Below are positions 1 through 14,791 of a stretch of DNA of 64,000 bases, one piece after another. Source of the DNA: Candidatus Poseidonia sp. (GTDB lineage Archaea; Thermoplasmatota; Poseidoniia; Poseidoniales; Poseidoniaceae); NCBI GenBank assembly GCA_022426155.1, contig JAKMEE010000032.1, forward strand, positions 1 through 64,000. The letters are read 5' to 3'. A program made the translations under genes and the position numbers. Position 1 is the first letter of the stretch, and every line of letters begins with the position of its first letter. The notes beneath the pieces are model-generated. The model worked only from the letters and a program-made list of their open reading frames with translations, searched no databases and was not told the DNA's origin.

Positions 1-71
1 TAAATTACTTTACACATAGTAGTCTAAGAAGTGTAGGGAGAATATTGAAAATATATTAGTAAAGGATTTGA

Positions 72-725
72 CTGGGGGCGATTCTAAACTTTGGCAAAAA
101 GGCACCGTTTTTTTGGTTTAGTATACCAGAAAACCTACGCATAATTACTGAACCCGGTCATCTTTCTTTCTATGAAGAATTTCGTAAGCCAAGTACTAAA
201 GATAAAATCATAGGACATGCATTCTCTATTGGATTAATTGTACTAATTGTAAAATTAGTCAATGATGGATTACAATATAATGATTCAGACCCTCTTCTTC
301 CATTTGTAGGGCAATTACCATTTATACCAGCTACAGTTCTTCTATTTGTGCTAATTTTGACTAATGTGCGAAGGAGAATCAAACTAATCACGTTTGATTT
401 CAACAAAAATGAAGTTAAACTTGAACCGATTAAATTCTCATTTATTGGTACCAAAACTGCAACAATATCATCTCCATTCAGTGTGAAGATACAGAGAAAC
501 ACGAGAGAAAAACAGCATAGTAGTAGTGACGGAGACGGTTATGGAGAAAGCTGGACTACCTATCATGAGGGATATGAGATCATGATAAATCTTGAAAAAT
601 TAGGGTATCAATCGGTAATGTTCCTCGAGACTGATAATCTAAAGGAAGATTATGGTGATTTAATCAGTAGATTAGTCACCTTCGCAGGTATTGATGACCC
701 ACTATTGGAAATCGATGAAAACTAA
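72..725 (+). CDS. Two-TM membrane protein of unknown function, no canonical start codon
   Basis: I do not recognise this protein. The frame is open from just after a TGA at 69-71 to the stop at 725, and it reads like protein throughout. It has two hydrophobic spans, one encoded near 207-257 (IIGHAFSIGLIVLIVKLV) and one near 321-365 (FIPATVLLFVLILTNV), followed by a basic stretch and a soluble C-terminal domain of about 110 residues with a Ser/Asp/Gly-rich loop. The first ATG, GTG or TTG in frame is a GTG at 348, which would cut off the first span and most of the second. The gene may use an unusual start, or its 5' end may be damaged by a frameshift. Confidence is good that the region codes, poor for the start. 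Confidence 0.5.
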   Translation: MGAILNFGKKAPFFWFSIPENLRIITEPGHLSFYEEFRKPSTKDKIIGHAFSIGLIVLIVKLVNDGLQYNDSDPLLPFVGQLPFIPATVLLFVLILTNVRRRIKLITFDFNKNEVKLEPIKFSFIGTKTATISSPFSVKIQRNTREKQHSSSDGDGYGESWTTYHEGYEIMINLEKLGYQSVMFLETDNLKEDYGDLISRLVTFAGIDDPLLEIDEN

Positions 726-769
726 AATTCGCATCACTACTCTAGCGCCTGTATCAGCCCACTGCACCT

Positions 770-798
770 CTTTGTATCGGGAAATAAAATGTAAAGGG
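770..798 (+). repeat. Left arm of 29-bp inverted repeat
   Basis: This 29-nt sequence is the reverse complement of 2694-2722 with one mismatch. The two arms bracket the zinc-ribbon gene and the pentapeptide lipoprotein gene. The core includes TTTGTATCGGGAAATAAAAT. A shortened variant of the same core lies at about 1234-1249. Confidence 0.8.
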
Positions 799-851
799 TA
801 ATCAGATGAAAGGTTTGTATTAATCTGGATATGTCATACTTCCCAATTTAA

Positions 852-1208
852 TTAATACCCTCTGATCAAGAACGAAATTACGACAATTGGTATTCCAATA
901 GCCACAATTCCGCAAGGGACGACAGCCGCTGCATAGTTGCCCCATGAGCCACCACCACCATCTTCAAAAATCGCGAATCCCATGAATGTAATTACTCCTA
1001 TAGCATTAATTGCCAGTCCAATTTTCATGCCCCTGCTCATAAAAAGTTGTGAACGGTCAAATAGATTTGGAGCAACTAATTCATTATCACCAAATGAGAA
1101 ACCATTACCACAATGGGGGCAATCAAACAATCCTGAAACTCCGTCTTCTAATTCAATATCTTGCTCACAATGAGGACATTGAATTACGACCATAAAATTT
1201 CCAATCAT
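852..1208 (-). CDS. Zinc-ribbon membrane protein, 118 aa, unknown function
   Basis: The N-terminus carries two CPHC knuckles about 18 residues apart (residues 11-14 and 30-33), a typical zinc ribbon. After a short polar linker there are two predicted membrane spans (about residues 62-80 and 92-114). Cytosolic zinc ribbon followed by two helices is a common architecture for small archaeal membrane proteins of unknown role, and a second example lies at 36688 in this window. The gene follows the pentapeptide lipoprotein on the same strand, separated by 146 nt of palindromic spacer, so it probably has its own promoter. The substrate is unknown. Confidence 0.75.
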   Translation of the reverse strand: MIGNFMVVIQCPHCEQDIELEDGVSGLFDCPHCGNGFSFGDNELVAPNLFDRSQLFMSRGMKIGLAINAIGVITFMGFAIFEDGGGGSWGNYAAAVVPCGIVAIGIPIVVISFLIRGY

Positions 1209-1296
1209 TGCGATTGAATAAGCATTGAGCAGGTTTCCGATACAAAGGGCCCCCTTCGCTTACCCATCGATAACAACGGTACCCACTGTATGGATG

Positions 1297-1325
1297 GAAA
1301 TGCAAAGGGGCCCCCTTCGCATTTC
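1297..1325. repeat. 29-nt near-perfect palindrome (hairpin)
   Basis: Fourteen base positions on each side of C1311 pair with one mismatch; the centre is AAAGGGGCCCCCTT. It lies just beyond the stop of the pentapeptide lipoprotein gene (minus strand). A weaker relative with the same AAAGGG/CCCCTT core is at about 1243-1258, and the flanks share bases with the 29-bp inverted repeats at 770 and 2694. It may act as a transcript 3'-end hairpin or belong to a dispersed palindromic element; no T-run follows in either direction. Confidence 0.6.
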
Positions 1326-1354
1326 AGTCGTATTTTTAAATTATAGAATGAAAT

Positions 1355-2611
1355 TTATGGGTTCGGATTCATGTTGTTGTCGCAGGTATTTCCATTGTCA
1401 TCGGAATTCGTACCATCAGGACATATTGTGTTATTCCATTGCGTCCAAAAACCATTTCCGTAAATCGTTGCACCTGTCAAATTCGTATTAGAAAAATTAA
1501 CGAATTCGAGGGGAACGTTCCCTAAATTGACGCCACTCAAATTTGCATCTGTGAAATCTACCCACTCCAAGTCGTCAAGCAATGACAAATCCAAATTACT
1601 CAAGTCAATACCGGTAAAATCAGCACCTCCAAGGTTAGCATACGGTCCAACAAGGCTGTAAGAGCCGTAGTTGCTTGGTCCAACACAAGACCAGTTCGAA
1701 GGAAGTGATAATGGACAAATGACATTCGCCGTTGACGTATGATTCATATCCAAGCCCTCCATAATCACTCCAGAAAGGTTAGCCCGATAAAATGAACTAA
1801 ATGTCACAATTGCGCCCTCCAAAACTGCTCCAGAAAGGTTAGCTCCCGCAAAGCTGGCCCCAAGAAGATATGAATTCGTCAGGTTTGAATCGCTTAAGTT
1901 CGCATTGGCAAGATTCGCAGAACCTAGATTGACGGAATAAAGATTTGCTCTACTTAAATCTGAGTTAATCAAAAATGCATTCTGAAGCTGTACTGAAGTG
2001 AGATTTGCACCACTTAGACGAGCTCCCTCAAGATCAGCGCCATCAAGATTTGCCAAACCTAGGTCAGCAATGTTTTGCTGGGCAATTCGTTGCCAGTATT
2101 CTACGAGATTTTCTTCTGTAATAATGTCACTTTGGAGTTGTATAATTGTTTCATTAGCTTCTTGAAGCATGGTTGTTAAATCATCATTTGTAGAATTTGA
2201 TTCTGACAGAAGCCCTAACAGGGTATTGCGTTCTTCTTCAACATTAGAGAGTTGTAGTTGCATGTTTGACAAATTTAAATTTGCAGCCAAAAGTTGTTGA
2301 TTTGTGGAGTTAATTAATTCAATATATTCTAAAATCAGAGTATTTTTCTCCATAATGGTGTTGTTCTTATCAGCAATCATCTCTAGTAATAATGTATTAT
2401 TTGAGTTCAGTTCATCAATGACGATAACCAATTCAGCGTGAGAATTTAGTTGTTCTTCAAGTGTTTGATTCATTTCATCTTGATTCTTTTGCAGATCTGA
2501 TATCTCTTTATGTAATTCTGAAGTATCAAATTCTTCAGCATCTCCTAAACAACCTGCTAGGGAAGAAGATATTATCAAAGTTGAAAATATGATTGCATGT
2601 AATTTCCTCAT
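1355..2611 (-). CDS. Pentapeptide-repeat lipoprotein with coiled coil
   Basis: The N-terminus is a lipoprotein signal: MRK, a hydrophobic stretch and the lipobox LAGC with Cys21 as the likely lipidated residue. Residues about 30-175 form a long coiled coil rich in Asn, Glu and Leu. From about residue 183 there are many pentapeptide repeats of the A(N/D)LxG type (ANLDGADLEGARLSGANL is representative), broken by a Cys-containing insert near residues 295-315 and resuming to about 385. Numerous NxS/NxT sequons suggest an exported, possibly glycosylated protein. The likely form is a membrane-anchored stalk carrying a right-handed beta-helix. A TATA-like ATTTTATG sits 25-33 nt upstream of the ATG, suggesting a leaderless mRNA. 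The ligand is unknown. Confidence 0.85.
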   Translation of the reverse strand: MRKLHAIIFSTLIISSSLAGCLGDAEEFDTSELHKEISDLQKNQDEMNQTLEEQLNSHAELVIVIDELNSNNTLLLEMIADKNNTIMEKNTLILEYIELINSTNQQLLAANLNLSNMQLQLSNVEEERNTLLGLLSESNSTNDDLTTMLQEANETIIQLQSDIITEENLVEYWQRIAQQNIADLGLANLDGADLEGARLSGANLTSVQLQNAFLINSDLSRANLYSVNLGSANLANANLSDSNLTNSYLLGASFAGANLSGAVLEGAIVTFSSFYRANLSGVIMEGLDMNHTSTANVICPLSLPSNWSCVGPSNYGSYSLVGPYANLGGADFTGIDLSNLDLSLLDDLEWVDFTDANLSGVNLGNVPLEFVNFSNTNLTGATIYGNGFWTQWNNTICPDGTNSDDNGNTCDNNMNPNP

Positions 2612-2693
2612 ATCTCAAGGACTCCTACCCTCATACATAAAATGTACACCGGCAGCGCATATCTTACCAATATTTCAAGGGATTATCCGAAAA

Positions 2694-2722
2694 CCCTTTG
2701 CATTTTATTTCCCGATACAAAG
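2694..2722 (-). repeat. Right arm of 29-bp inverted repeat
   Basis: This is the reverse complement of 770-798 with a single difference (28 of 29 identical). It lies upstream of the pentapeptide lipoprotein gene. Both arms are also near copies of GGGTAATCAGA (about 796 and 2765). Confidence 0.8.
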
Positions 2723-2771
2723 GGGATTCAGTGGGTCGCTGCTAACGCTATCCCTTGATGCGATGGGTAAT

Positions 2772-2788
2772 CAGAGGGGAACCCTCTG
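2772..2788. terminator. Short hairpin downstream of the 2813-3568 gene
   Basis: CAGAGGG-GAA-CCCTCTG is a perfect 7-bp stem with a 3-nt loop. It lies 25 nt past the stop codon of the minus-strand gene that ends at 2813, so it is a plausible transcript 3' end. No U-tract follows, so termination is an inference. Confidence 0.4.
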
Positions 2789-2812
2789 GTTAGGTGAACA
2801 TTGATTGTTCCA

Positions 2813-3568
2813 TCAACGATCCCAATGCATTTTTCCATCTTGATCAACCCAATGATGGAAGTAGCGAACTTTCACATCTCCCCGCCTGATTGCATCTCTC
2901 ATCCTCGCCTCGTTCTTTGTGAGACTTGGAACTGAGTCAGTTGTTGTCAAATTTGATTCAATGAAGAACAGATGGAGTTTGTCATTCTTCCATGCGATTG
3001 ACAACCAATCACAACCGTAGCGCATCTGATGGATGTTTCTCAGTGGAATTGGTGGCCGGCTATTCATAGGGATCAAACCTGCAATTTGCATTTCAATGAC
3101 AGTACCTGAATCTCTATTGATTTGTTTTTGAAGACGTCTAACTTCTTCTTCCAGTCTTTTTTCCCGTCTTGACTTGGGTGGATTGCGAGAGATTCTTCTC
3201 AAACTATATCCAAATGCTGCAAACCCTTTCGCTAGTTTGTTTCTCCACTTCGCAATCAATCTCTTGTTGCCTGAAATCTCAGCATCAATCATCTCTATTG
3301 CGCGAATCGAAGCTTCTTCGGAGATTGTGATTGACGAATCGGTATCGGAAATCTGAACACGTTGTTCAAGGTGTTCTCTTTCGACCAAAATGAATCCTTG
3401 GCTCGAGTTCGGAATCGATGCTGCAAGACAATCCTGGTCAAGATTTGCAACTTTTACATGTCTTGTACTTCCATTTGGCGTCAAACGAACCGCAAAACCT
3501 CTGTCTTTGTGCAAGATTGCCCTCCTAAGGTCTTTCTTTGCCTCAGGAAATCGCTCAATACCCATCAT
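2813..3568 (-). CDS. Hypothetical basic soluble protein
   Basis: I do not recognise this protein. From the ATG pair at 3568/3565 (MMGIERFPEAKK) it is about 251 residues, soluble, and rich in Arg/Lys. A predicted coiled-coil segment of mixed charge (RREKRLEEEVRRLQKQIN) lies about two thirds along. The C-terminal part has beta-rich text such as YGCDWLSIAWKNDKLHLFFI, followed by an Arg-rich helix, and ends in HHWVDQDGKMHWDR. The same frame is open upstream to 3670, but that extension runs through palindromic repeats and reads poorly, so the internal ATG is preferred. A nucleic-acid-binding or nuclease-like role is possible, but no catalytic motif is clear. Confidence 0.6.
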   Translation of the reverse strand: MMGIERFPEAKKDLRRAILHKDRGFAVRLTPNGSTRHVKVANLDQDCLAASIPNSSQGFILVEREHLEQRVQISDTDSSITISEEASIRAIEMIDAEISGNKRLIAKWRNKLAKGFAAFGYSLRRISRNPPKSRREKRLEEEVRRLQKQINRDSGTVIEMQIAGLIPMNSRPPIPLRNIHQMRYGCDWLSIAWKNDKLHLFFIESNLTTTDSVPSLTKNEARMRDAIRRGDVKVRYFHHWVDQDGKMHWDR

Positions 3569-3636
3569 TTCCAACCCCCATGGTTTGCAATGGTTGAACC
3601 ATTGATGGTTGCTCAAATTCGGCTGAACCATGGGGG

Positions 3637-3680
3637 TTTTCAAGAGTTGAAAACATGGTTTGATTTTCAAGAGTTGAAAA
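3637..3680. promoter_or_regulatory. Tandem palindromes TTTTCAA-GAG-TTGAAAA
   Basis: The same 17-nt perfect palindrome (7-bp arms, GAG spacer) occurs at 3637-3653 and 3664-3680, 27 nt apart. An unrelated palindrome AACCAT-TG-ATGGTT lies at about 3596-3609. All lie 30-110 nt upstream of the minus-strand ATG at 3568, where a dimeric repressor or activator would bind. An operator role is inference. Confidence 0.5.
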
Positions 3681-3828
3681 GTCGTTCAACAAAGGGCATC
3701 AACTCCTGGGCTTGAGAATGAGGCTAAAAGATCCCTTGCTGCCTCGGCATCACCTGCAGCCAGCAAGGCATGTGCCGCTCTGATTATGGCAAGAAGTTTG
3801 GAATCAAATTCTTGGGTTATACAGACCC

Positions 3829-3929
3829 CAGCGTCCACTTTGCCTCTTATCGTTGAGCATTGTGTTCGCTTTGCCATGCTCATTGCACAGGTTGTCGAAT
3901 GGAGAGCGTTGGCCCCAGCGTCCACCATC
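3829..3929 (+). repeat. Dispersed direct repeat, copy 1 (left of giant gene)
   Basis: About 100 nt here match 8965-9059 in the same orientation. The first ~57 nt differ at about 6 positions (AGCGTCCACTTTGCCTCTTA is identical in both), and the right end shares GTTGGCCCCARCGTCCAC. CCCCAGCGTCCAC itself occurs twice, at 3826 and 3913, so the element is bounded by a short direct repeat. The two copies bracket the 4125-8786 gene. Confidence 0.75.
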
Positions 3930-4093
3930 CCTTTTTTGGCCGCGCAGTATGCTGTTAGCCTTGCAAAAACGGTAGACTTTTTCTAACGGCTCTGTTGTTC
4001 GGCAAGGTGACAATCTTTGTTCGGCCTCTCAGCAATCAACGGTTTTACATGAGGATTGGATGTTATTGAGGCTTATACATTTCACAAAAATAA

Positions 4094-4100
4094 GTTATAT
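4094..4100 (+). promoter_or_regulatory. TATA-like box of giant surface protein
   Basis: GTTATAT in an A/T-rich stretch is centred about 28 nt before the ATG at 4125. This spacing fits an archaeal TATA box driving a leaderless mRNA. Confidence 0.45.
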
Positions 4101-4124
4101 CTCGATTAAAAAGTTTATTCCCGA

Positions 4125-7100
4125 ATGAATAAAATCTCTTCACCTATTCGCCAACACATGTCCCGTCCTCGTAAAATTATACCAATCGCTATTGTGTTGA
4201 TGCTGTTTTTCGTTTACTTGAATCAAATTGTTGAATTCAGTCAATCATCCCTTGAGGCAAATGAACGTCTCGTTCACCCAACAAACTCACAGTCCCCAGA
4301 GGTGGAACTTTACCAACCAACGGAACCTGTTATGCAGTTGGACATTAGCGGCGATAACTACTTTTCTTGTTACGTTTCTTCTGAGGGAGGATTGTTTTGT
4401 TGGGGAGATAATGCGGCTTCACAACTCGGAGACGGGACGACAACCGATCGTGGCGTACCAGTAACACCCGCAGGTCTCCAATCTAACGTCAGTATGGTCG
4501 CTCTCGGCCGATATTTTGGCTGTGCACTCTTGGACAACGGCACGGTATCATGCTGGGGGAAAAATGACTATGGGCAACTCGGCGTTGGAGATCTTCTAAC
4601 GAGGACAACACCAACGCAAACCAACGGTTTTGGAACAAACAAATCCGCAGTTTCAATCAGTGCCGGAGACTACCACATGTGTGCGATTATCAACGATGGG
4701 TCTATCCAATGTTGGGGTCAAGGAAACTCAGGTCAATTGGGTCGTTCAGCCAGTTTGGGAGTTGCAAAAACCCCTACCTCTACAGGAACTCTTGGTTCAG
4801 GAAAAACTGCTGTGTCAATTAGCCTTGGTAATACCCATTCCTGCGCTTTTCTGAACGATCAGTCGGTCAAATGTTGGGGAAACAATGGTCATGGTCAATT
4901 GGGAATCGGTAGCTATACCTCCAGTGTACACTCCCCAACAACGGTGTCATCCTTTGGTGGAAACAGGCAAGCAACGGCCATTTCATCAGGATATCAGCAT
5001 ACATGTGCGATACTTGATGACGGAAACACATCTTGTTGGGGATTGAATGATTATGGTCAACTTGGTTTGAACTCAACAACGAGCTACCGAACACCACAAA
5101 TAGTTGATATGAGTAACCTCCAAAGCACCTTCAAATCTCTGTCAGCGGGGAAGATGCACACCTGCGGCGTGCTGGTTTCCAACCAATCAGCTTGCTGGGG
5201 TCATAACAGTGGTGGAAACCTTGGAGACGGTACGACGACCATCAAAAAACTGCCAGTTTACGTAGAGAATTTATCATTGGGCGACGAAGTGGTGAACATA
5301 AGTGGAGGGAAATTACATACCTGCGCTTCATTCAAGGACGGGTCGCTAAGGTGTTGGGGGTCCAACAATGAAGAAGCGTTGGGTCTTTCGTATTCCTCCG
5401 TCACCAGCAGTGATGAACCAAGCGGTCGTCCAATAGGTCCCAAGAGTTTGGTTCGAGCGACTGAAGTGGTTGAAAATCAACAGACTAATCTAACCGTTCG
5501 AATATTGAATCATGCTGGAACAAATCTGACTTTAGATCATCCCGCCGGTCTCAACTTTTCAAACGCGACCATGATGCTAAGCGGGTCGCCCGTGTACACG
5601 CTACAATCCGTTTGGAACGCAACCAGCACCAATCCGTTTGAATCGTTCAACAAAACATACGCCCTTGAAGTGCTCAGAGACACAGACAGTGACGGTATTG
5701 CCAACAAATACGACAACGATGACGATGGGGATTCAATCTCAGATGATTCCGACGTGTGTCCAATCGAATGGGGGAATGCCACCGTTGACCGTCGCGGTTG
5801 CCCGGACAAGGACGGCGACGGTGTTTCAAATTCAGGAGACGCCTTCCCCGCCGATGCGAGTCAAATAGGCGATTCGGACCAAGACGGGTACGGGGACAAC
5901 ACTACTGGTTTTCGGGGCGACCGGTGCCCGACGATTTACGGAGAGTCTCGCAGGGGGAATGTGTTTGGATGTCCAGATACAGACTTTGATGGATGGGACA
6001 ACGGCAACGATTCCTTTCCTCAGCAGTCGAGTCAATGGAACGACAGCGATGGGGATGGTTACGGTGATGAATTCTCAGGGTTCCAAGGAGACCGTTGTGT
6101 TAGCATCGCTGGAAATTCAACCACCGACCGGTTTGGGTGCATTGATTCAGATGGAGACGGTTATTCAGATTTAGGTGATGCATTCGACAATAACCCAACG
6201 CAGTGGTTCGACTTAGATGGCGACGGTTACGGGAACAATCAGTCCACCAATGCCACACAATCCGATGCCTTTCCAAGCGACGGTACACAGTGGAACGACA
6301 CCGATGGCGACGGGCACGGTGACAACAAGTACGGTTCCCAAGGTGACCACTTTCCGAGCGACCCAAACCGCTGGCAAGACACCGATGAAGACGGGTATGC
6401 CAACGAAGATGATGCCTTTGACAACGACGCAACTCAATGGAACGATACCGATGGAGACGGGTACGGGGACAATCAAAACGGTAACAACGCAGACCTTTTC
6501 TCAAACGATTCCTCTGAGTGGTACGATTCTGATGGGGATGGGGTCGGTGACAATTCTGACGATTTCAAATTTGATGGATCTCAATCTGTTGACGGGGACA
6601 ACGACGGCTACGGTGACAATCCAAACGGTACCAATGGCGACCAGTTTACAAACGACACACTACGTTGGAGCGACCGTGATGGAGACGGCTACAGCGATCA
6701 GCAAAACGATGACGCCTTCATCAACGATGCCACGCAATGGAACGATTCAGACGGCGATGGATTTGGCGACAATGCCAACGGCAACAACCCTGATGCATTC
6801 GCCAACGACTCATTAGAATGGAAAGACACGGATGGCGACGGTGTAGGAAATAACGGCGATTGGGCTCCTACCGATGGAACCCAATGGGCTGACGTTGACA
6901 ACGATGGCTTTGGCGACAACCCGAACGGCACCAACGGTGACCAGTACACGAACGACTCACTGCGTTGGTCCGACACGGACGGTGACGGGTATTCGAATCA
7001 GGAAAACGATGACGCTTTCATCAACGACGCCACGCAGTGGAACGATACCGACGGAGACGGCTATGGAGACAACGAAAACGGTACCAATGCCGACCTGTTT

Positions 7101-8786
7101 CCCAACAACAGCAGCGAATGGTACGACGCAGACGGCGACGGCGTAGGCGACAACTCGGACGAGTTCATCTATGACGGCAGTCAATCGGCTGATTCGGACG
7201 GTGACGGATACGGTGACAACGCCAACGGTACCAACCCTGACGCCTTCCCCAACGACCAAACAGAATGGCGAGATGGAGATGGTGACGGCTACGGTGACAA
7301 TTCAGACGCCTTTCCCGTCGACGCCACACAATGGGCTGACACGGACGGAGACGGGTACGGAGACAATAAGTATGGTTCACAAGGCGATCACTTCCCGGAC
7401 GATGTAACCCGCTGGAAGGACAGCGACGAGGACGGTGTTGCAGATGATGATGACGCTTTCCTTAACGAACCAACGCAGAGCTCAGATCGAGACGCTGACG
7501 GCTACGGCGACAATGCCTCAGGAACCAACCCGGATCAGTTCCCTGATGATGGTGGTGAATGGGAAGACAGTGATAACGACGGCGTGGGCGATAACACCGA
7601 TGCCTTCGTGTTCGACCCGACGCAGTCAACCGACAGCGACGGTGATGGCTACGGTGACAATTTGACCGGCTCGAACGCTGATGCCTTTCCCAACAACTCC
7701 CTTCGTTGGGCAGACACCGACAACGACGGCTATGCTGACCAAGACGACGCATTCCCGACGGACAACACGCAATCAAGCGACACGGATGGCGATGGATACG
7801 GCGACAATGCCAACGGGACCAATCCAGATGCCTTCCCTGATGATGCGACACAACACGCAGATCGAGACAGCGACGGCTTCGGGGATAATCCACTGGGAAC
7901 GAATCCAGACGCCTTCCCATCCGATACAACGCAGTGGTCGGACCAAGACGGGGATGGTTTTGGTGACAACCCCACAGGCCAGCAACCAGACCAGTTCCCT
8001 GAAAATCCAACGCAGTACATTGATGAAGATGGCGATGGATTGGGCGATAATCAAGCCGGAACCGAAGCTGACCCTTCCCTGAACGATGCGGACAACGATG
8101 GGTACACCGATGACGTTGACATCTTGCCAAATCTGGCCAGCCCAGGTGATTTGGACAACGATGGAATCCTCGATGAAGAGGACGCCTTCCCTGCTGATTT
8201 CCGTGAGTACAAAGACAGCGACGGTGACGGCGAAGGCGACAACGCTGACGTGGACGACGACAACGACGGATGGACCGACATTGACGAAATTCGTGAAGGA
8301 GCCGATCCCTTTTCATCCAGTGTTCAACCCGTTGAAGGCTTTGAGGTGATTATCCCCAGCACACAAGTGAGTCTTGGTGCCTGGGACATCATCGGCATTA
8401 TGACCGGTGTGCCACTTGCTCTTTGGATGGGGCTTGGGCTTGTAACTCGGACCCAACGTGGCAGGAAGTACGAGGACTTGCTAAGCAATGCCGGTTCCAT
8501 CGAGGAATTGAATTCAATTGCTGCAGAATACGAATCCTCCCTCATGTGGAAGATGCTCGGGCCGCACCAAGGTCTGCGATTGGAACGCATGCGAACCGAG
8601 ATCGAACGAGACAAATTTGGAGACCAGATGAAGTCACTACCCGAACTTGAATCCAATATAGCACTCAGGCCTACTGGTCAAATAGAACCGGCGGCCGAGG
8701 CCACACAGGTGACTCCAAACACCGTTGATGGGGCTCCAGAATCAACAGCAACGGCTCAGAAAACCGATGAGAAAGGGTACGAATGA
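4125..8786 (+). CDS. Giant RCC1-repeat / thrombospondin type 3-repeat surface protein
   Basis: The protein has 1553 residues. Residues 18-33 form a signal anchor. Residues ~65-440 carry seven or so RCC1-type blades, each with a C-x-(L/I)-x-(D/N)-G-x(3)-CWG signature, predicting a beta-propeller whose paired Cys residues could form disulfides. Residues ~519-1395 are calcium-binding thrombospondin-3-like repeats (D-x-D-x-DG-x-GDN). A single membrane span lies near residues 1419-1440, followed by ~110 cytoplasmic residues. It is probably a cell-envelope adhesin or sensor: a propeller displayed on a long Ca2+-rigidified stalk. The TSP3 DNA shows higher-order repeats with exact 300- and 600-nt offsets (compare 6624 with 6924, and 6516 with 7116). 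The gene stands alone between direct repeats. Confidence 0.85.
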   Translation: MNKISSPIRQHMSRPRKIIPIAIVLMLFFVYLNQIVEFSQSSLEANERLVHPTNSQSPEVELYQPTEPVMQLDISGDNYFSCYVSSEGGLFCWGDNAASQLGDGTTTDRGVPVTPAGLQSNVSMVALGRYFGCALLDNGTVSCWGKNDYGQLGVGDLLTRTTPTQTNGFGTNKSAVSISAGDYHMCAIINDGSIQCWGQGNSGQLGRSASLGVAKTPTSTGTLGSGKTAVSISLGNTHSCAFLNDQSVKCWGNNGHGQLGIGSYTSSVHSPTTVSSFGGNRQATAISSGYQHTCAILDDGNTSCWGLNDYGQLGLNSTTSYRTPQIVDMSNLQSTFKSLSAGKMHTCGVLVSNQSACWGHNSGGNLGDGTTTIKKLPVYVENLSLGDEVVNISGGKLHTCASFKDGSLRCWGSNNEEALGLSYSSVTSSDEPSGRPIGPKSLVRATEVVENQQTNLTVRILNHAGTNLTLDHPAGLNFSNATMMLSGSPVYTLQSVWNATSTNPFESFNKTYALEVLRDTDSDGIANKYDNDDDGDSISDDSDVCPIEWGNATVDRRGCPDKDGDGVSNSGDAFPADASQIGDSDQDGYGDNTTGFRGDRCPTIYGESRRGNVFGCPDTDFDGWDNGNDSFPQQSSQWNDSDGDGYGDEFSGFQGDRCVSIAGNSTTDRFGCIDSDGDGYSDLGDAFDNNPTQWFDLDGDGYGNNQSTNATQSDAFPSDGTQWNDTDGDGHGDNKYGSQGDHFPSDPNRWQDTDEDGYANEDDAFDNDATQWNDTDGDGYGDNQNGNNADLFSNDSSEWYDSDGDGVGDNSDDFKFDGSQSVDGDNDGYGDNPNGTNGDQFTNDTLRWSDRDGDGYSDQQNDDAFINDATQWNDSDGDGFGDNANGNNPDAFANDSLEWKDTDGDGVGNNGDWAPTDGTQWADVDNDGFGDNPNGTNGDQYTNDSLRWSDTDGDGYSNQENDDAFINDATQWNDTDGDGYGDNENGTNADLFPNNSSEWYDADGDGVGDNSDEFIYDGSQSADSDGDGYGDNANGTNPDAFPNDQTEWRDGDGDGYGDNSDAFPVDATQWADTDGDGYGDNKYGSQGDHFPDDVTRWKDSDEDGVADDDDAFLNEPTQSSDRDADGYGDNASGTNPDQFPDDGGEWEDSDNDGVGDNTDAFVFDPTQSTDSDGDGYGDNLTGSNADAFPNNSLRWADTDNDGYADQDDAFPTDNTQSSDTDGDGYGDNANGTNPDAFPDDATQHADRDSDGFGDNPLGTNPDAFPSDTTQWSDQDGDGFGDNPTGQQPDQFPENPTQYIDEDGDGLGDNQAGTEADPSLNDADNDGYTDDVDILPNLASPGDLDNDGILDEEDAFPADFREYKDSDGDGEGDNADVDDDNDGWTDIDEIREGADPFSSSVQPVEGFEVIIPSTQVSLGAWDIIGIMTGVPLALWMGLGLVTRTQRGRKYEDLLSNAGSIEELNSIAAEYESSLMWKMLGPHQGLRLERMRTEIERDKFGDQMKSLPELESNIALRPTGQIEPAAEATQVTPNTVDGAPESTATAQKTDEKGYE

Positions 8787-8964
8787 GACATGGTAGAAGA
8801 TGGTATGGACTCTACTGGCCGAGGGCAAGCGGTGATGAGTGGATTATGCATGAGAATTGAGTTCGTGCTCCATCAGTGTCATGGCCAAATCGGTTCGCTG
8901 CGCCTCGATGAGCGTAGCGATGGCATGCAGAATTGAGTGACAATCGCACACCTGTGCGACTCGC

Positions 8965-9059
8965 TAGCGTCCACTTTGCCTCTTATGGTTGAGCGTTGTG
9001 TCCGCTTTACCACGCTCTTTGCTCATCGCTGCAATTCGTTGGCCCCAACGTCCACATCC
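8965..9059 (+). repeat. Dispersed direct repeat, copy 2 (right of giant gene)
   Basis: This is the second copy of the 3829-3929 element, 6-7 nt shorter through an internal gap. Its right end contains the perfect 14-nt palindrome CGTTGGCCCCAACG (9037-9050); copy 1 has one mismatch there. It ends 13 nt before the stop of the EF-hand membrane protein gene. Confidence 0.75.
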
Positions 9060-9072
9060 TCAGAGAGTCATC

Positions 9073-10428
9073 TTAAGGGGCGTCATCAATTCGTTGTGCT
9101 CGCTTGTATGCAAATTTCCAAAGCGGAGCCATGTCTTGAGTAAATTCGCCAATGGATATTTTTCCATCATCCCCTCCGAAGTGTTCCATATAATCGACTG
9201 CCTCGTATGGAGCCATGCCCCATTCCACGAGGAGAACTTCGAGTTCCATCAACTCCAAAAATCCAGATTGATCAATGTCAAGGAATTCAAAAACAGCTTT
9301 TGCAACCAATTCTGGATTCGAAAGACCTTTGTCGCGTAGTAGGTCTGCTGGGATTCGCTTTTGCATGTTTCCAATCGACCAAACCGTTTTTCTGAAGCAA
9401 TCAAAATCAATTTCTTCTTGATGCTCAAAACGGTCAATATATGCTTGAATTACATGTGGGGTCGCATCCCATGAAATTAACAATTCCTGGATTTCACCAA
9501 CATCAAGTGTCCCTGAGTTGTTGTGGTCAAGCGAGTGGAATGCAGCTTTTGCGGCTTCAATTTCACTCAACCCACTTGAAGCATATTCTGTATTCAATTC
9601 TAGCCACATGGCTCGGACATTCTCATTAATTGTGGCAGAATGTGTACGTTCTTCCATCAATGCTTTGTATTCATTTATGCTAGGCTTTAGAATTATTTTG
9701 GTCAATTGAATGTAAAAGATAATCCCCATACAAAACAACAGAAGGCCTGCCGGGCCAATCACAAAGTGAATAATGGTTGCACCACCAGCCATTGTTCCGA
9801 CGGTATAGGTTGAATTTGGAATCATGCCAAATTTCCACATCAATCGTCCGTATAAGCGAACGAATGCATACGCTTGTAAGGTAATCCAAGTTCTCTCAAT
9901 CCAAAGAAGACTTTCTGGTTCAAATGCTAAATGAATTGCGCAGTAAATATGAAGTGACGAGATTCCAATATATGCTGGAACCATGATTCCTTTCGCTCCA
10001 AATACACCCGGAGTCTGAAACAATGCTGAAGGTGCGTGCGCAGTAAATACACAGACAAGTGTGATCATTGACCATGTATATCCTGAAAACACGATGACAT
10101 CACCGGTGTAAATACAAAACCAAGCCATGGCTCCAGCAATGACTTCAGCAGAGCCTGCAATTATGTGACTCATCATAGTGAACTTTCGTTTCGGCAACAT
10201 GATGTATTTTGGATGTGGTGGGTTGGTAGCATGAAAGTAAATGATATACATATTCAGAAGTATAGAAAAAGCGGCGAAAGCTATGAATTGAGATTTGTAT
10301 TGCATTGAAGAATATATCCAAGAAGTGCCCTCTCCGTTTCCAAAATAGTCCAAAAAGAGCCAATAAATTCCAAAATAAGCACCCATTGTAAGGAAAAAGA
10401 CCAAACCCCTCAGTTTCCGATTTGACAT
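9073..10428 (-). CDS. Multi-pass membrane protein with C-terminal EF-hands
   Basis: Residues 1-247 contain seven or eight predicted membrane helices with several His residues in or near them (His87, His131, His160, His166, His221). Residues ~285-451 are soluble and carry EF-hand loops: DHNNSGTLDVGE (301-312) and DIDQSGFLELME (384-395) are close to canonical, while regions near 333-341 and 416-428 (HFGGDDGKISIGE) look like degenerate partners, giving two EF pairs. EF-hand regulation of an integral membrane protein is rare in archaea. The gene is divergent from the NDH-2-like flavoprotein at 10515, sharing an 86-bp promoter region, which suggests a joint function. The membrane domain family is not recognised; haem binding by the histidines is only a possibility. 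Confidence 0.7.
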   Translation of the reverse strand: MSNRKLRGLVFFLTMGAYFGIYWLFLDYFGNGEGTSWIYSSMQYKSQFIAFAAFSILLNMYIIYFHATNPPHPKYIMLPKRKFTMMSHIIAGSAEVIAGAMAWFCIYTGDVIVFSGYTWSMITLVCVFTAHAPSALFQTPGVFGAKGIMVPAYIGISSLHIYCAIHLAFEPESLLWIERTWITLQAYAFVRLYGRLMWKFGMIPNSTYTVGTMAGGATIIHFVIGPAGLLLFCMGIIFYIQLTKIILKPSINEYKALMEERTHSATINENVRAMWLELNTEYASSGLSEIEAAKAAFHSLDHNNSGTLDVGEIQELLISWDATPHVIQAYIDRFEHQEEIDFDCFRKTVWSIGNMQKRIPADLLRDKGLSNPELVAKAVFEFLDIDQSGFLELMELEVLLVEWGMAPYEAVDYMEHFGGDDGKISIGEFTQDMAPLWKFAYKRAQRIDDAP

Positions 10429-10449
10429 AGCAAGTGTTTATCGGGCTTG

Positions 10450-10459
10450 TTTATAATTT
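10450..10459 (-). promoter_or_regulatory. TATA-like box of EF-hand membrane protein
   Basis: AAATTATAAA on the minus strand lies 22-31 nt upstream of the ATG at 10428, consistent with a leaderless archaeal promoter. The divergent gene at 10515 has an A-rich GAATAAAAGA at 10491-10500. Confidence 0.45.
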
Positions 10460-10514
10460 CATTCATTATGAAGCCAGGGGTTATCTTGATGAATAAAAGA
10501 GATGTCGTTTAGCC

Positions 10515-12128
10515 ATGGCTCCGAGAAGGATAGTGATTCTCGGAGGTGGCTACGGAGCACTGTACTCATGCCCAAGATTGAAGCGAGCGGCTCGTCAAGG
10601 AAAGGTAGAAGTCACCTTGATTAATAAAGAAAATTTTCACATTTGGCATGGTTTCATTGGTGAAATGCTTGTTGGAAAGATTTCTCCTCGCAGCATCTTA
10701 ACGCCTGCTCGGCGTGTCTTCCAGCCAGCAAAAATCATACTGGCGATTGTCAATCAAATCGATCGGGAAAAGAAGTTAGTAAGCTTCATTCGGGAACACG
10801 ATGGCCTGCCGGGGACAATTCCCTATGATGATTTAATCATCAATGTGGGAACGCGACAAAGTTCTGAATCATTTCCGGGATTGGATGAACATGGATTTAA
10901 ATTAAAAAAATGGGATCACTGTTTCCAACTTCGTAATCACATACCACGAATGTTTGAACTGGCAAGTTCGACTGATGATGAAGATGAACGACGTGCCATG
11001 CTCACATTTTTTGTTGCAGGGGGCGGATTTTCTGGTACAGAAGTTGCAGGCTCCCTGGCTTCCCTTGCTAAAAAAGTCATAAAAAAGGATTACAAAGAGT
11101 TGGATATGTCTGAGGTAAGAATTGTTTTGGTTCATCCTGGAAAGACGATCTTGCCTGAATTTTATGGCCCGAGAGTCAATACAAACCAAGTTAAACAATA
11201 TCCGTCATTGGTAAAGTATGCTGAGAAACAACTCAAAAAATCCGGCGTAGAATTGAAGACCGAGACAAGAATTTTAGCGGTTTCTCCGAAGTCGGTCACC
11301 TTGGATGATGGGATTGTTATTCCAACTCGAACCGTAATTAGTGCAATTGGAACTAGCCCACAAGCCCTCGTTTTTGGAAGTGACCTACCACTGACAGAAT
11401 CTCAACGTTTGGATTGTGAACCCTCTGGTTTGGTCAAAGGTTGCACGGATATTTATGCTGCCGGCGATTGTGCAGCAATTCCACATCCGAAAGGGGGGGA
11501 AATTCCACCCACTGCTTGGTGGGCAATGAAAGCAGGTGACCATGTTGCAAAAAATATTCTAAGGGCAATGAAAGGCAAGAAGCCCAAGCCATTCAAATTA
11601 ACAGGGCTTGGTCAGGCGGTATCGATTGGTAATAATCGGGCTTGTGCGGAGTTGAAAGGAATTCCGATAAAAGGCTTCACTGCATGGGTGACCTGGCGAA
11701 TATTTTTGCTTTACTATTTCCCTTCAGTCGATGGAAAAGTCCGCCTTCTCTCTGATTGGATGATTTCCCCATTATTGGGTAGAGATATCATTGATATGAG
11801 TGTTGACGATTTTGACGATTTCGAAATTAAAAGAATGCGGTATCAGCCAGGTGAATTGATTGTTGAGCAAGGTCGGGTCGGAAACACATATCAATTGATT
11901 CTTTCAGGTCAAGCGATTGTATCCCAAGATGTGGATGGCGATGGTGTTGACGACTTCGTCAAAACTCTTGGTGTTGGAGATCTGATTGGGCACGATTCAT
12001 CCGATGGAATTGCAAAATATTCAGTCAAAAGTGATGATGTCCTAGAAACGGTTGCTTTACGACACGATGAAGCAGAAGACTTGGCACGTACATTCTCTAT
12101 TTTGTTGAAGAGCGAGCATTCCTCTTGA
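10515..12128 (+). CDS. Type II NADH dehydrogenase-like flavoprotein fused to cNMP-binding-like domain
   Basis: Residues 1-420 are an NDH-2/FAD-dependent pyridine nucleotide-disulfide oxidoreductase: FAD-binding VILGGGYGA (7-15), NAD(P)H-binding FVAGGGFSGTEVAGS (166-180), and the second FAD motif DIYAAGDCA (312-320). Such enzymes pass electrons from NADH to membrane quinone without pumping protons. Residues ~436-530 form an extra domain with the cyclic-nucleotide-binding fold pattern (YQPGELIVEQG, YQLILSGQAIV, LGVGDLIG). Inside it is DVDGDGVDDF (472-481), which matches a calcium-loop consensus. NDH-2 enzymes are usually ~400-450 residues, so the C-terminal domain is an addition. Substrate could also be sulfide (SQR-like), but no redox Cys pair is evident. 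Confidence 0.75.
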   Translation: MAPRRIVILGGGYGALYSCPRLKRAARQGKVEVTLINKENFHIWHGFIGEMLVGKISPRSILTPARRVFQPAKIILAIVNQIDREKKLVSFIREHDGLPGTIPYDDLIINVGTRQSSESFPGLDEHGFKLKKWDHCFQLRNHIPRMFELASSTDDEDERRAMLTFFVAGGGFSGTEVAGSLASLAKKVIKKDYKELDMSEVRIVLVHPGKTILPEFYGPRVNTNQVKQYPSLVKYAEKQLKKSGVELKTETRILAVSPKSVTLDDGIVIPTRTVISAIGTSPQALVFGSDLPLTESQRLDCEPSGLVKGCTDIYAAGDCAAIPHPKGGEIPPTAWWAMKAGDHVAKNILRAMKGKKPKPFKLTGLGQAVSIGNNRACAELKGIPIKGFTAWVTWRIFLLYYFPSVDGKVRLLSDWMISPLLGRDIIDMSVDDFDDFEIKRMRYQPGELIVEQGRVGNTYQLILSGQAIVSQDVDGDGVDDFVKTLGVGDLIGHDSSDGIAKYSVKSDDVLETVALRHDEAEDLARTFSILLKSEHSS

Positions 12129-13158
12129 TGCTAAGTTCAAACAATTCCATCAATGCCTGCTCGATTATTTCAACATCATTGAGCAAATTCCCGTGGCTTT
12201 GAGATGTCTCATATTCGATATCAATCGGATAGAATGGCTTTGCTGAATCAAACAATATTCTTCCGTCACCCGGTTCTAAACTCGGTTGGTCGATGTCCCA
12301 TTTGTTGGATGTGGTTCGTTTGTATGAACATGGAGTTTGATGTTTCAAACTACGTACTATTCCGGTAGGGGGTATTTCTTTGGAAATTGGCCACTCCGAC
12401 TCAATTGTTGTTCGAATCCTTTGTGCGGTAAGAAGTGCTTGGTCCAAGTGTTTCATGTCTTTCTTGGAGAGTGTGGATTTAGATGAAAACAAACCCAAGC
12501 CATTCGCCCTCCATGAGTTTGAATCGTACCAATTATGGTCAACTTCATTTCCATCTTGGTCAAAAAGTCTAGAATGACCTGCGAGTGGAAAGTATGTCCA
12601 CGGAGCAGTCCACGTGAAGTGAACGCTTTGATCGATGATTGTTCTGTTTCTCAGAATACGCTCTCCCCTGGTCATGTCTGGGAGAAAACTTACCCCATCC
12701 CCAAAAGGTACGCCACAATGGAGTACGCCGTGGACCTTCGGACACGATTCCATTCGCAGTGCTAATTCTGTAACGATTCCACCGTTGCTGTGAGTTATCA
12801 GCAAAGGGATGTCTTGTTCATTGGTTATTCTTTCGATGAAGGCGACCAGGAGATCCGCAGCTTCTTCTTGCGATCTACGCCAGTCGTATGTAAATGAATG
12901 AACTCTCCACAATTTTTTCCCTAGGCCATTGAGGAATTTACCGTAAATTGACTTTCCAGCGAGTGAAGATATCGGTTTTCCGCTCCGATCACTCGTTTTG
13001 GATTGAATTCCATCGTCCCAAGAGATAGGTAGTGCCATGCTTGTGTCTTTGTTATACAGTATGTCTCGGATTCGCAGCCACTTTTTGTTACCCTTGGCTC
13101 CAATCAATTCGCACCCTTTGATTCCATGGATAAAAATCAGTGGTGGATTGGATGCCAT
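12097..13158 (-). CDS. LCAT-like alpha/beta hydrolase
   Basis: This resembles the lecithin:cholesterol acyltransferase / PGAP1-like branch of alpha/beta hydrolases. It starts with the oxyanion strand PLIFIHGIKG (6-15), has FTYDWRR (89-95) as in LCAT proteins, and a nucleophile elbow LLITHSNGG with Ser124. The elbow reads T-H-S-N-G rather than the usual G-x-S-x-G. A later acid and histidine (for example in the SQSHGNLL region near the C-terminus) could complete the triad. A lipase, acyltransferase or esterase acting on lipids is likely; the substrate is unknown. Its 3' end overlaps the convergent flavoprotein gene by 32 nt. Confidence 0.7.
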   Translation of the reverse strand: MASNPPLIFIHGIKGCELIGAKGNKKWLRIRDILYNKDTSMALPISWDDGIQSKTSDRSGKPISSLAGKSIYGKFLNGLGKKLWRVHSFTYDWRRSQEEAADLLVAFIERITNEQDIPLLITHSNGGIVTELALRMESCPKVHGVLHCGVPFGDGVSFLPDMTRGERILRNRTIIDQSVHFTWTAPWTYFPLAGHSRLFDQDGNEVDHNWYDSNSWRANGLGLFSSKSTLSKKDMKHLDQALLTAQRIRTTIESEWPISKEIPPTGIVRSLKHQTPCSYKRTTSNKWDIDQPSLEPGDGRILFDSAKPFYPIDIEYETSQSHGNLLNDVEIIEQALMELFELSIKRNARSSTK

Positions 13159-13299
13159 GAAGTCACCTAACTACGCCATTGAACATGGGGTAATAACTTA
13201 ATCTCACCATTCCAAAGTTAGGTAAACCCGTTCAACATCAATGTAAGCTACACTCACCTTAACCACGGTCAAACACTCGTTCTGGTAGGTTTGGTTTCA

Positions 13300-13566
13300 C
13301 TATTTTTTTCTCGATACTTCACAATACACGGTTTTTCCACTTCGGAGTAAATTTACTATGTTCGTGTGAACATCGTGTTTTCCAGAAATCAACCTCCACA
13401 AATAATTCTCGGGGTGTTCTGATCCATGGGTTGATGCCCAGTTAGAATTTGGCGAGCGGAAAATAATGCTCACGTCCACTCCCTCCCAGCGAAGTCGAAA
13501 ATCATCCAGTTCCCCTCCGCGGTTTTCAATGAGATTTGTTGTGATTTCAATTCGTTCTTTGTCCAT
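13300..13566 (-). CDS. Small hypothetical protein, 88 aa
   Basis: I do not recognise this short soluble protein. The ATG at 13566 (MDKERIEI) is chosen because a GGAGGAG Shine-Dalgarno-like sequence lies 6-12 nt before it; the frame extends five codons further to a TTG. The text alternates strands and charged turns (FRLRWEGVDVSIIFR; KTVYCEVSRKK), suggesting a small beta-rich fold. It lies between the LCAT-like hydrolase and the nuclease gene on the same strand. Confidence 0.6.
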   Translation of the reverse strand: MDKERIEITTNLIENRGGELDDFRLRWEGVDVSIIFRSPNSNWASTHGSEHPENYLWRLISGKHDVHTNIVNLLRSGKTVYCEVSRKK

Positions 13567-13617
13567 TATTGGCTCCTCCAAGAATCAGTATTAGATCGGA
13601 CTCAGAAGCCTTGGGTT

Positions 13618-14697
13618 TCAAGGCCAAGAACCAGGATGATTTGTTCTCATCCATTCATATCGATTATCCATCACATCAAAGTCATGGAAGTTCTCAACGG
13701 TGGAAACTCTTCCTGTCCGAGAATTAGGAGGCGAAGGCATCGCTTGTTTGGGTGGTAAATTTGGGTCAAGAATGCACTCAATTGCTAAATCAATTGTGGG
13801 TTCAACCCAGCTCCAATCCAGTGGAGTTTCTGTATGAGCACTTTCTAACTGCAAATCCAAACTAGTGGTGAAATCTACTTGACTGCCATGGCCAGCGTTG
13901 AAGATGATGTGATGGCCGATGGGGTGAACACGATGAGGAAGCCCCTCGCGTGCCACAATCCTCTCCATCATCCATGCATAGAACTCGAGTTGTCGGATAT
14001 ACGCTCGATGAAATTTTCCAGATGAGTGTCTTGGATTCCACCATTCGGTTACTTTCTCTTGCCATTTGGATGGTTTACTGCTTGTTGATTTATAATCGAT
14101 GATAACCAACCAAGGTTGACCATCTTCATCAGTGTATTCAAGGATGTCATCCGGCATACCGTACACATTAAATCGAGCATAGGGGTCTGTTGGACGTTGG
14201 TACAAGATGCCACGGGTACGGGCCCACCTCCACTGCGCATATGGACGTCGGCCACATAAATCCACGAAGAAATCAGGGTCAGTCGGATGTATCCACGGGA
14301 CCATGTCGGCAAGAGGGGTCCCTGAAAAATGTGGAATAGCCCCCACTCGTGAAAGAGTTCCTGACGCACGAATGACATCGGTTGAAGCCTCTGCCAATGT
14401 GCCGATGCGCTCGTTGATTGTGAAACTCGCCCCAGATAACCTCGCAGCAAATGCTCCGTTAAATCTCAACCAAAATTGACGTGGGCTCTCGAGGAAAATG
14501 CCCAATGTACCTTGGCTGAGGTCTTTTGTGAAATCACTGCCTCTCTGGCCGACTCCATAGAATATTTGAGTTGCGGCCGTCGATGGGTCATACGCCGTGC
14601 GATCGTACCCTCCAACTTTCTTATCCAAGAGAATTCGATTCGCAGGAAATCCTGGAAGGAATTGGTATGATTCATTGCCTGGGTCTCCGACTGTCAT
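13618..14697 (-). CDS. PD-(D/E)XK nuclease superfamily protein (RecB/Cas4-like)
   Basis: The core has the ordered signature of RecB-family nucleases: an acidic residue in YGMPDDILEY (about 179-188), the catalytic IIDYKST strand (Asp201, Lys203), and the downstream helix RQLEFYAWMM (235-244), matching the QxxxY motif. The 359-residue protein has a long N-terminal extension that may recognise DNA. No Cys set for the Cas4-type Fe-S cluster is evident, and there is no CRISPR array here, so a DNA repair or processing role is more likely than adaptation. The primase and helicase genes follow a few genes away. Confidence 0.75.
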   Translation of the reverse strand: MTVGDPGNESYQFLPGFPANRILLDKKVGGYDRTAYDPSTAATQIFYGVGQRGSDFTKDLSQGTLGIFLESPRQFWLRFNGAFAARLSGASFTINERIGTLAEASTDVIRASGTLSRVGAIPHFSGTPLADMVPWIHPTDPDFFVDLCGRRPYAQWRWARTRGILYQRPTDPYARFNVYGMPDDILEYTDEDGQPWLVIIDYKSTSSKPSKWQEKVTEWWNPRHSSGKFHRAYIRQLEFYAWMMERIVAREGLPHRVHPIGHHIIFNAGHGSQVDFTTSLDLQLESAHTETPLDWSWVEPTIDLAIECILDPNLPPKQAMPSPPNSRTGRVSTVENFHDFDVMDNRYEWMRTNHPGSWP

Positions 14698-14791
14698 GGG
14701 TTCAAACTCTCGCTGATGCTTTTCAAATTTACCCTACTACATGGTGTCCAGAAAAACACCCACTTATATGCTGGAAGATGAATGTAACCAC

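Follow-up and report, generated by a model that had tools for sequence, protein, structure and literature searches.

Calcium control of type II NADH dehydrogenases (NDH-2) is known from eukaryotic mitochondria, and the EF-hand NADPH oxidases NOX5 and DUOX have EF-hands attached to a membrane domain that contains His and is coupled with electron flow from NAD(P)H through FAD. In the Ca2+-regulated external NDH-2s of plants and fungi, the EF-hand is part of the enzyme's own chain, inserted after the GD motif and before alpha7 (PMC5299459). A survey of 1762 NDH-2 sequences found the quinone motifs AQxAxQ, AQxAxR, and APxAxQ together in 87% of them and the Trp of the WxxG motif in 99% (PMC5299459). 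Here we describe a locus of Candidatus Poseidonia sp. in which an NDH-2-type flavoprotein with an added cyclic-nucleotide-binding (CNB) fold is encoded back-to-back with an EF-hand membrane protein and overlaps a hydrolase gene. The locus lies in a 64,000-nucleotide stretch (assembly GCA_022426155.1, contig JAKMEE010000032.1, positions 1 to 64,000), called the window throughout, and consists of the following features:

9073..10428, minus strand: gene 1, a 451-residue membrane protein with a C-terminal EF-hand domain of four EF-hand units (open reading frame, Pfam, AF2 model, and hydropathy; orthologues in genomes G111 and G099)
10429..10514, no strand: divergent intergenic region of 86 bp between both start codons (sequence)
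10515..12128, plus strand: gene 2, a 537-residue NDH-2-type flavoprotein with a C-terminal CNB-fold domain (open reading frame, Pfam, PDB, Foldseek, and model)
12097..13158, minus strand: gene 3, a 353-residue alpha/beta hydrolase, LCAT/lipase-like, with an HSNGG nucleophile motif, also a member of the cassette (Pfam and orthologues)

The two back-to-back reading frames and their shared 86-bp region, reported in a preliminary description made from the sequence, were confirmed; the third cassette gene, which is convergent with gene 2 and overlaps its 3' end by 32 bp, and the bacterial precedents given below go beyond that description. We tentatively propose, as a reading that stops somewhat short of being probable, that the three genes form a rare, horizontally mobile cassette for a membrane-docked, Ca2+-responsive NAD(P)H oxidoreductase module.

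Of the 340 genomes of the class that were searched, just three carry genes 1, 2, and 3, the same three for each gene: the window genome (G000), G111 (locus PABV01000049, Euryarchaeota archaeon NAT11), and G099, which represent three genera within one family. The ten further matches to gene 1 among the 340 genomes were short EF-hand matches, not full-length ones, and a draw of 390 genomes of the phylum yielded no additional gene 1. The three-gene module is thus very rare and not a general feature of Poseidoniia. As far as can be seen from the contigs, the genes keep one order and orientation in the three genomes, gene 2 of G099 being split over two contig ends, one with gene 1 and the other with gene 3. 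The gap between genes 1 and 2 is 86 bp in the window, 86 bp in G111, and about 85 bp in G099, its length being kept while its sequence is poorly conserved. Orthologues share 63% and 73% amino acid identity, with saturated synonymous divergence (dS) and a nonsynonymous divergence (dN) of 0.2-0.3; over the cassette as a whole dS is saturated and dN is 0.2-0.5, which indicates that the cassette proteins are under purifying selection. The gene pair singled out in the preliminary description is therefore conserved in related genomes, together with the Ca2+-ligand positions of the EF-hand protein and of the loop in the CNB domain. A random open reading frame or bin contamination was rejected, because two other genera of the family also have the cassette and because a core gene just past the region is shared by 15 of 16 genomes of the genus.

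The NDH-2 assignment made in the preliminary description is borne out by several lines of evidence. Gene 2 exceeds the Pfam cut-offs for Pyr_redox_2 (E 1e-27) and for NDH2_C (28.9 bits versus 27.7), and its best PDB sequence matches and top Foldseek matches are all NDH-2s (model pLDDT 73.7). Like the canonical enzymes (S. aureus, C. thermarum, mycobacteria, and yeast Ndi1), the protein has the two-Rossmann tDBDF fold with the membrane-anchoring C-terminal NDH2_C domain, the GxGxxGxE NADH motif (G169, G171, G174, and E176) with its catalytic glutamate, the YD pair (Y104-D105), and the GD motif (G317-D318). Unlike them, it lacks the quinone motif and WxxG and carries an added CNB-fold domain and a linked membrane partner. 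The positions concerned are:

11040..11042, plus strand: E176 of GxGxxGxE, the conserved NDH-2 catalytic glutamate (motif comparison, PMC5299459)
11340..11351, plus strand: SAIG (residues 276-279), replacing the NDH-2 WxxG motif (motif comparison)
11514..11531, plus strand: AWWAMK (residues 334-339), replacing the quinone motif AQxAxQ/AQxAxR/APxAxQ (motif comparison)

In the archaeal proteins WxxG reads SAIG or SAVG (SxxG), and its Trp is also absent from the Rhodobacter, Gemmatirosa, and Paraburkholderia relatives. AWWAMK is identical in the G111 orthologue and occurs in none of the other NDH-2s compared, nearly all of which have AQ- or AP-type variants. Because the NADH-side motifs are intact, the protein would be expected to oxidize NAD(P)H by FAD at the membrane surface, as established for NDH-2. 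Because AWWAMK stands in place of AQxAxQ, ordinary quinone reduction by the gene 2 product is doubtful, and an electron acceptor other than the usual quinone seems indicated; the label "respiratory" given to the module earlier is weakened by the same replacement.

One alternative is that gene 2 is an ordinary accessory NDH-2, a transferred membrane NADH:quinone reductase whose Ca2+ motifs are structural and whose neighbor, gene 1, has an unrelated transport or sensing role. The complete NDH-2 fold with its NDH2_C domain is what such an enzyme would have, quinone motifs do vary among natural NDH-2s (PMC5299459), and the 14 genomes checked held no other NDH2_C protein, so that the transferred enzyme could supply a missing function. 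Nevertheless, AWWAMK departs from all three common quinone motifs, and the perfect co-occurrence of three genes despite differing flanks would be unlikely for unrelated neighbors. We regard this explanation as unlikely, though it is the least unlikely of the rivals.

The C-terminal domain of gene 2 adds two features:

11823..12071, plus strand: CNB-fold beta-barrel, residues ~437-519, with the phosphate-binding Glu and Arg missing (model, alignment, and profile)
11928..11954, plus strand: DVDGDGVDD (residues 472-480), a DxDGDGxxD Ca2+-type loop at the CNB beta-hairpin turn (model and alignment)

The Pfam cNMP_binding model scores 19.7 bits on gene 2, below its cut-off of 27.5. A profile built from the three orthologues retrieved almost exclusively CNB proteins from the PDB, with 15 PKG/PKA-type chains at the top of the list (best PKG, E 1e-4) and one weak cupin match (E 0.095). 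The model shows a beta-barrel in which residues 472-479, the DVDGDG loop, make a hairpin turn, and we accordingly assign the domain, from profile and model, to the CNB fold. Of the cyclic-nucleotide-binding-like domain proposed earlier, then, the fold stands. The ligand site does not: in the phosphate-binding cassette, IGHxxxDGxA replaces FGExxL...RxAxV in the archaeal proteins, removing both Glu and Arg. A search of 14 genomes, the three cassette hosts among them, turned up no class III cyclase, and no CNB domain above the cut-off was found in the three hosts. The DVDGDGVDD loop, by contrast, is present as described and is kept in all three archaeal orthologues, with positions 1, 3, 4, 5, 6, and 9 invariant and positions 2, 7, and 8 variable; the bacterial CNB domains have no such loop. 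Ca2+ binding by the Dx[DN]xDG motif is described for a dozen families or more, cyclic-nucleotide domains not being mentioned among them (PMC3123361), and its occurrence here may be a new context.

Sensing of a cyclic nucleotide was rejected as the likely function because the cassette Glu and Arg are lost and no class III cyclase was found. An NDH-2 regulated by a cyclic nucleotide bound to its CNB domain, as its bacterial relatives with an intact phosphate-binding cassette probably are, is thus very improbable in spite of the shared fold, the conserved cassette residues being missing and neither a cyclase of class III nor a CNB domain over the cut-off having been found in the host genomes. For the CNB domain of gene 2, a Ca2+-type input appears more plausible than cyclic nucleotide sensing. 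This view draws on the loss of the nucleotide ligands together with those two negative searches, and also on the presence of two independent, conserved sets of Ca2+-type loops on two linked proteins.

The second of these sets is found in gene 1, whose parts are as follows:

9643..10428, minus strand: membrane part, residues 1-262, with 6-8 helices (hydropathy and orthologue alignment)
9493..9528, minus strand: EF1 loop, residues 301-312 (D301-E312), DHNNSGTLDVGE, canonical (orthologue alignment)
9394..9429, minus strand: EF2 loop region, residues ~334-345, non-canonical, the partner of EF1 (alignment and model)
9244..9279, minus strand: EF3 loop, residues 384-395 (D384-E395), DIDQSGFLELME, canonical (orthologue alignment)
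9145..9180, minus strand: EF4 loop, residues ~417-428, non-canonical, with D421, G422, K423, I424, and E428 conserved (alignment and model)

The 451-residue protein exceeds the Pfam cut-offs for EF-hand_1, _5, _6, and _7, and EF-hands are all that Pfam reports; the EF-hand models are matched by all three gene 1 orthologues (best E 7e-14). In the AF2 model, which is poor overall (pLDDT 44), the secondary structure forms four helix-loop-strand-helix units at about residues 288-319, 324-352, 372-402, and 407-432. The two pairs of EF-hand loops claimed previously thus hold as a predicted fold of pair-wise helix-loop-helix units, but only the EF1 and EF3 loops are canonical, EF2 and EF4 being degenerate in sequence yet helix-strand-helix in the model. 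Across the orthologues EF1 keeps its ligand positions (with N or D at position 3) and varies at positions 2, 4, and 11; EF3 likewise keeps its ligand positions and varies at positions 4, 7, and 8. This pattern of variation resembles that of Ca2+ loops, and the two canonical loops are under selection.

Hydropathy gives six clear helices in the membrane part, with six to eight plausible. No homologue of the membrane part was found in Pfam or PDB sequence searches, and the AF2 model was too poor for a fold search of this part. By the positive-inside rule, judging from the K/R-rich ends and from the loop that follows helix 2, the C-terminus is probably cytosolic if the number of helices is even. 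All seven His and all seven Trp residues of the membrane part are invariant in the three orthologues, compared with 146 invariant positions among all 255 (for His, hypergeometric p = 0.019), and we read the invariant histidines as hinting weakly at heme or metal ligands and nothing beyond that. A phage or virus origin of gene 1 was rejected, with no match among phages, plasmids, and viral contigs; a scan for gene 1 with single-sequence patterns was insensitive, missing even the G111 orthologue, and cannot show absence from bacteria.

Among the described systems, the external NDH-2s of plants and fungi are similar in that an NDH-2 is associated with EF-hand motifs. The analogy drawn to them in the preliminary description is nevertheless a loose one, since the EF-hands here are on a separate membrane protein and gene 2 has no insertion between GD and alpha7. 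Literature searches returned no paper on Ca2+ and NADH in Poseidoniales and none on an NDH-2 fused to a CNB domain.

We hypothesize that the module works in the following way. The gene 2 product would oxidize NAD(P)H at the cytoplasmic face of the membrane, the EF-hand domain of gene 1 and the CNB loop of gene 2 would respond to Ca2+ or require it and govern docking or activity, and electrons would leave FAD through the remodeled acceptor site (AWWAMK) either to an unusual quinone or lipid or to the membrane partner itself, while the hydrolase encoded by gene 3 would process a lipid of the same pathway. Several points weigh against this proposal: the membrane part of gene 1 is without a usable model (pLDDT 44), the orthologue sample consists of three known sequences, EF-hands and DxDGDG loops can have a role in structure alone, and, if the C-terminus were extracellular, the EF-hands would be permanently loaded with Ca2+ in seawater and sense nothing. 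If the proposal is correct, a prokaryotic relative of NDH-2 that is genetically locked to an EF-hand membrane protein, and whose cyclic nucleotide sensor is apparently rewired to a metal-type loop, would show how such control can arise independently; with just two proteins, the pair would also be a compact system for testing how Ca2+ feeds into redox metabolism in archaea. With the quinone motif gone, whether the electrons go to a different acceptor becomes a testable question. The module is genuine, conserved, and unusual, and a demonstration that Ca2+ gates electron transfer to the membrane partner would make it far more interesting.

The hydrolase invites another explanation, in which the cassette is a lipid-redox or lipid-repair module whose flavoprotein is FSP1/AIFM2-like or feeds a lipid desaturase or reductase, whose LCAT-like hydrolase remodels the same lipids, and in which Ca2+ is a membrane or structural cofactor. 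Gene 3 has weak LCAT and Abhydrolase_6 matches, both below the Pfam cut-offs, and its HSNGG nucleophile motif and the DWRR, GVPFG, and FLPDM blocks are invariant among orthologues; as a constant member of the cassette it suggests a lipid link, although its lipid substrate is only putative. A fatty-acid desaturase-like gene adjoins the hydrolase in G111 (L057:4691-5767) but is missing at the other two loci, and FSP1 is among the structural matches of gene 2, although these are weaker than the NDH-2 matches. We judge a lipid module to be improbable, slightly more so than an ordinary NDH-2.

A bolder form of the Ca2+-responsive proposal takes the His-rich membrane domain of gene 1 as a new redox carrier (heme or another metal) fed directly by the flavoprotein with the rebuilt quinone site, with the EF-hands and CNB loop gating the transfer. 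The result would be a two-protein, Ca2+-gated archaeal NAD(P)H oxidoreductase convergent with the EF-hand NADPH oxidases. It differs from NOX5 and DUOX in belonging to another flavoprotein superfamily and in being made of separate polypeptides; no sequence similarity to them was found, and heme in gene 1 is putative. An electron-accepting role for this domain is speculation from its conserved histidines, and we consider the whole scheme distinctly improbable.

The NDH-2-CNB fusion is not unique to archaea, an idea that we rejected when tblastn of plasmid records returned two bacterial proteins of the same architecture. One is from Rhodobacter sp. CZR27 (NZ_CP023549; L070:7962-9632), with 98% query coverage and 29.5% identity, and the other, from Gemmatirosa kalamazoonensis (NZ_CP007129; L071:7980-10022), has the arrangement NDH-2-CNB-CBS-CBS. 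The fusion is therefore an existing, little-described bacterial architecture. The bacterial proteins are about 30% identical to gene 2, have the same domain order (NDH-2, NDH2_C, CNB), and have both lost the Trp of WxxG. In contrast to the archaeal proteins, they keep AQFAVR or AQFALR and an intact phosphate-binding cassette and lack DxDGDG. The Rhodobacter gene is flanked by sulfotransferase genes, with no EF-hand membrane protein beside it, and no EF-hand membrane open reading frame was seen beside the Gemmatirosa gene. In a tree of 21 sequences, the archaeal pair groups with the bacterial fusions (80/81, weak; stem length 1.64), and a Paraburkholderia protein without a CNB domain falls inside the same group. 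Three things set the archaeal branch apart: its acceptor motif is rebuilt, a metal-type loop has taken the place of the nucleotide-binding residues, and the enzyme has EF-hand and hydrolase partners. The bacterial plasmid fusions, annotated, if at all, just as FAD-dependent oxidoreductases, are possibly NDH-2s regulated by cyclic nucleotides and adenylates. A plasmid of Enterococcus raffinosus (L073) encodes a 612-residue NDH-2-like protein with a membrane tail, beside the extracellular electron transfer flavoprotein gene pplA; NDH-2s of this type, whose electrons take a non-standard route, are already known.

The genes flanking the cassette differ among all three genomes. Positions 1-14700 of the window, at the contig end, have a lower GC content, with most values at third codon positions (GC3) at 0.29-0.43 versus about 0.4-0.55 beyond, and this segment, which holds genes missing from relatives of the same genus, is an accessory island. 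Just past it, at 16.1-17.4 kb, lies a core gene present in 15 of 16 genomes of the genus. The low GC content, the absence of the neighboring PDDEXK gene from relatives, and the nearby core gene together indicate that the cassette looks like horizontally moving accessory DNA and not a mis-binned contig; with the window at a contig end and the relatives' flanks differing at this place, no clean empty site is identifiable. A role in anti-phage defense was considered and dropped, as PADLOC gave no match for four genes. At 13618-14697 (minus strand) the window encodes a PDDEXK_1-family (PF12705) nuclease-like protein that is absent from 29 relatives searched. On the other side, adjoining the cassette in the window though not in G111 or G099, positions 4125-8786 (plus strand) encode a protein of 1553 residues in which RCC1-type repeats precede a long array of thrombospondin type-3-like DxDGDG Ca2+ repeats and a membrane segment lies at the C-terminus.

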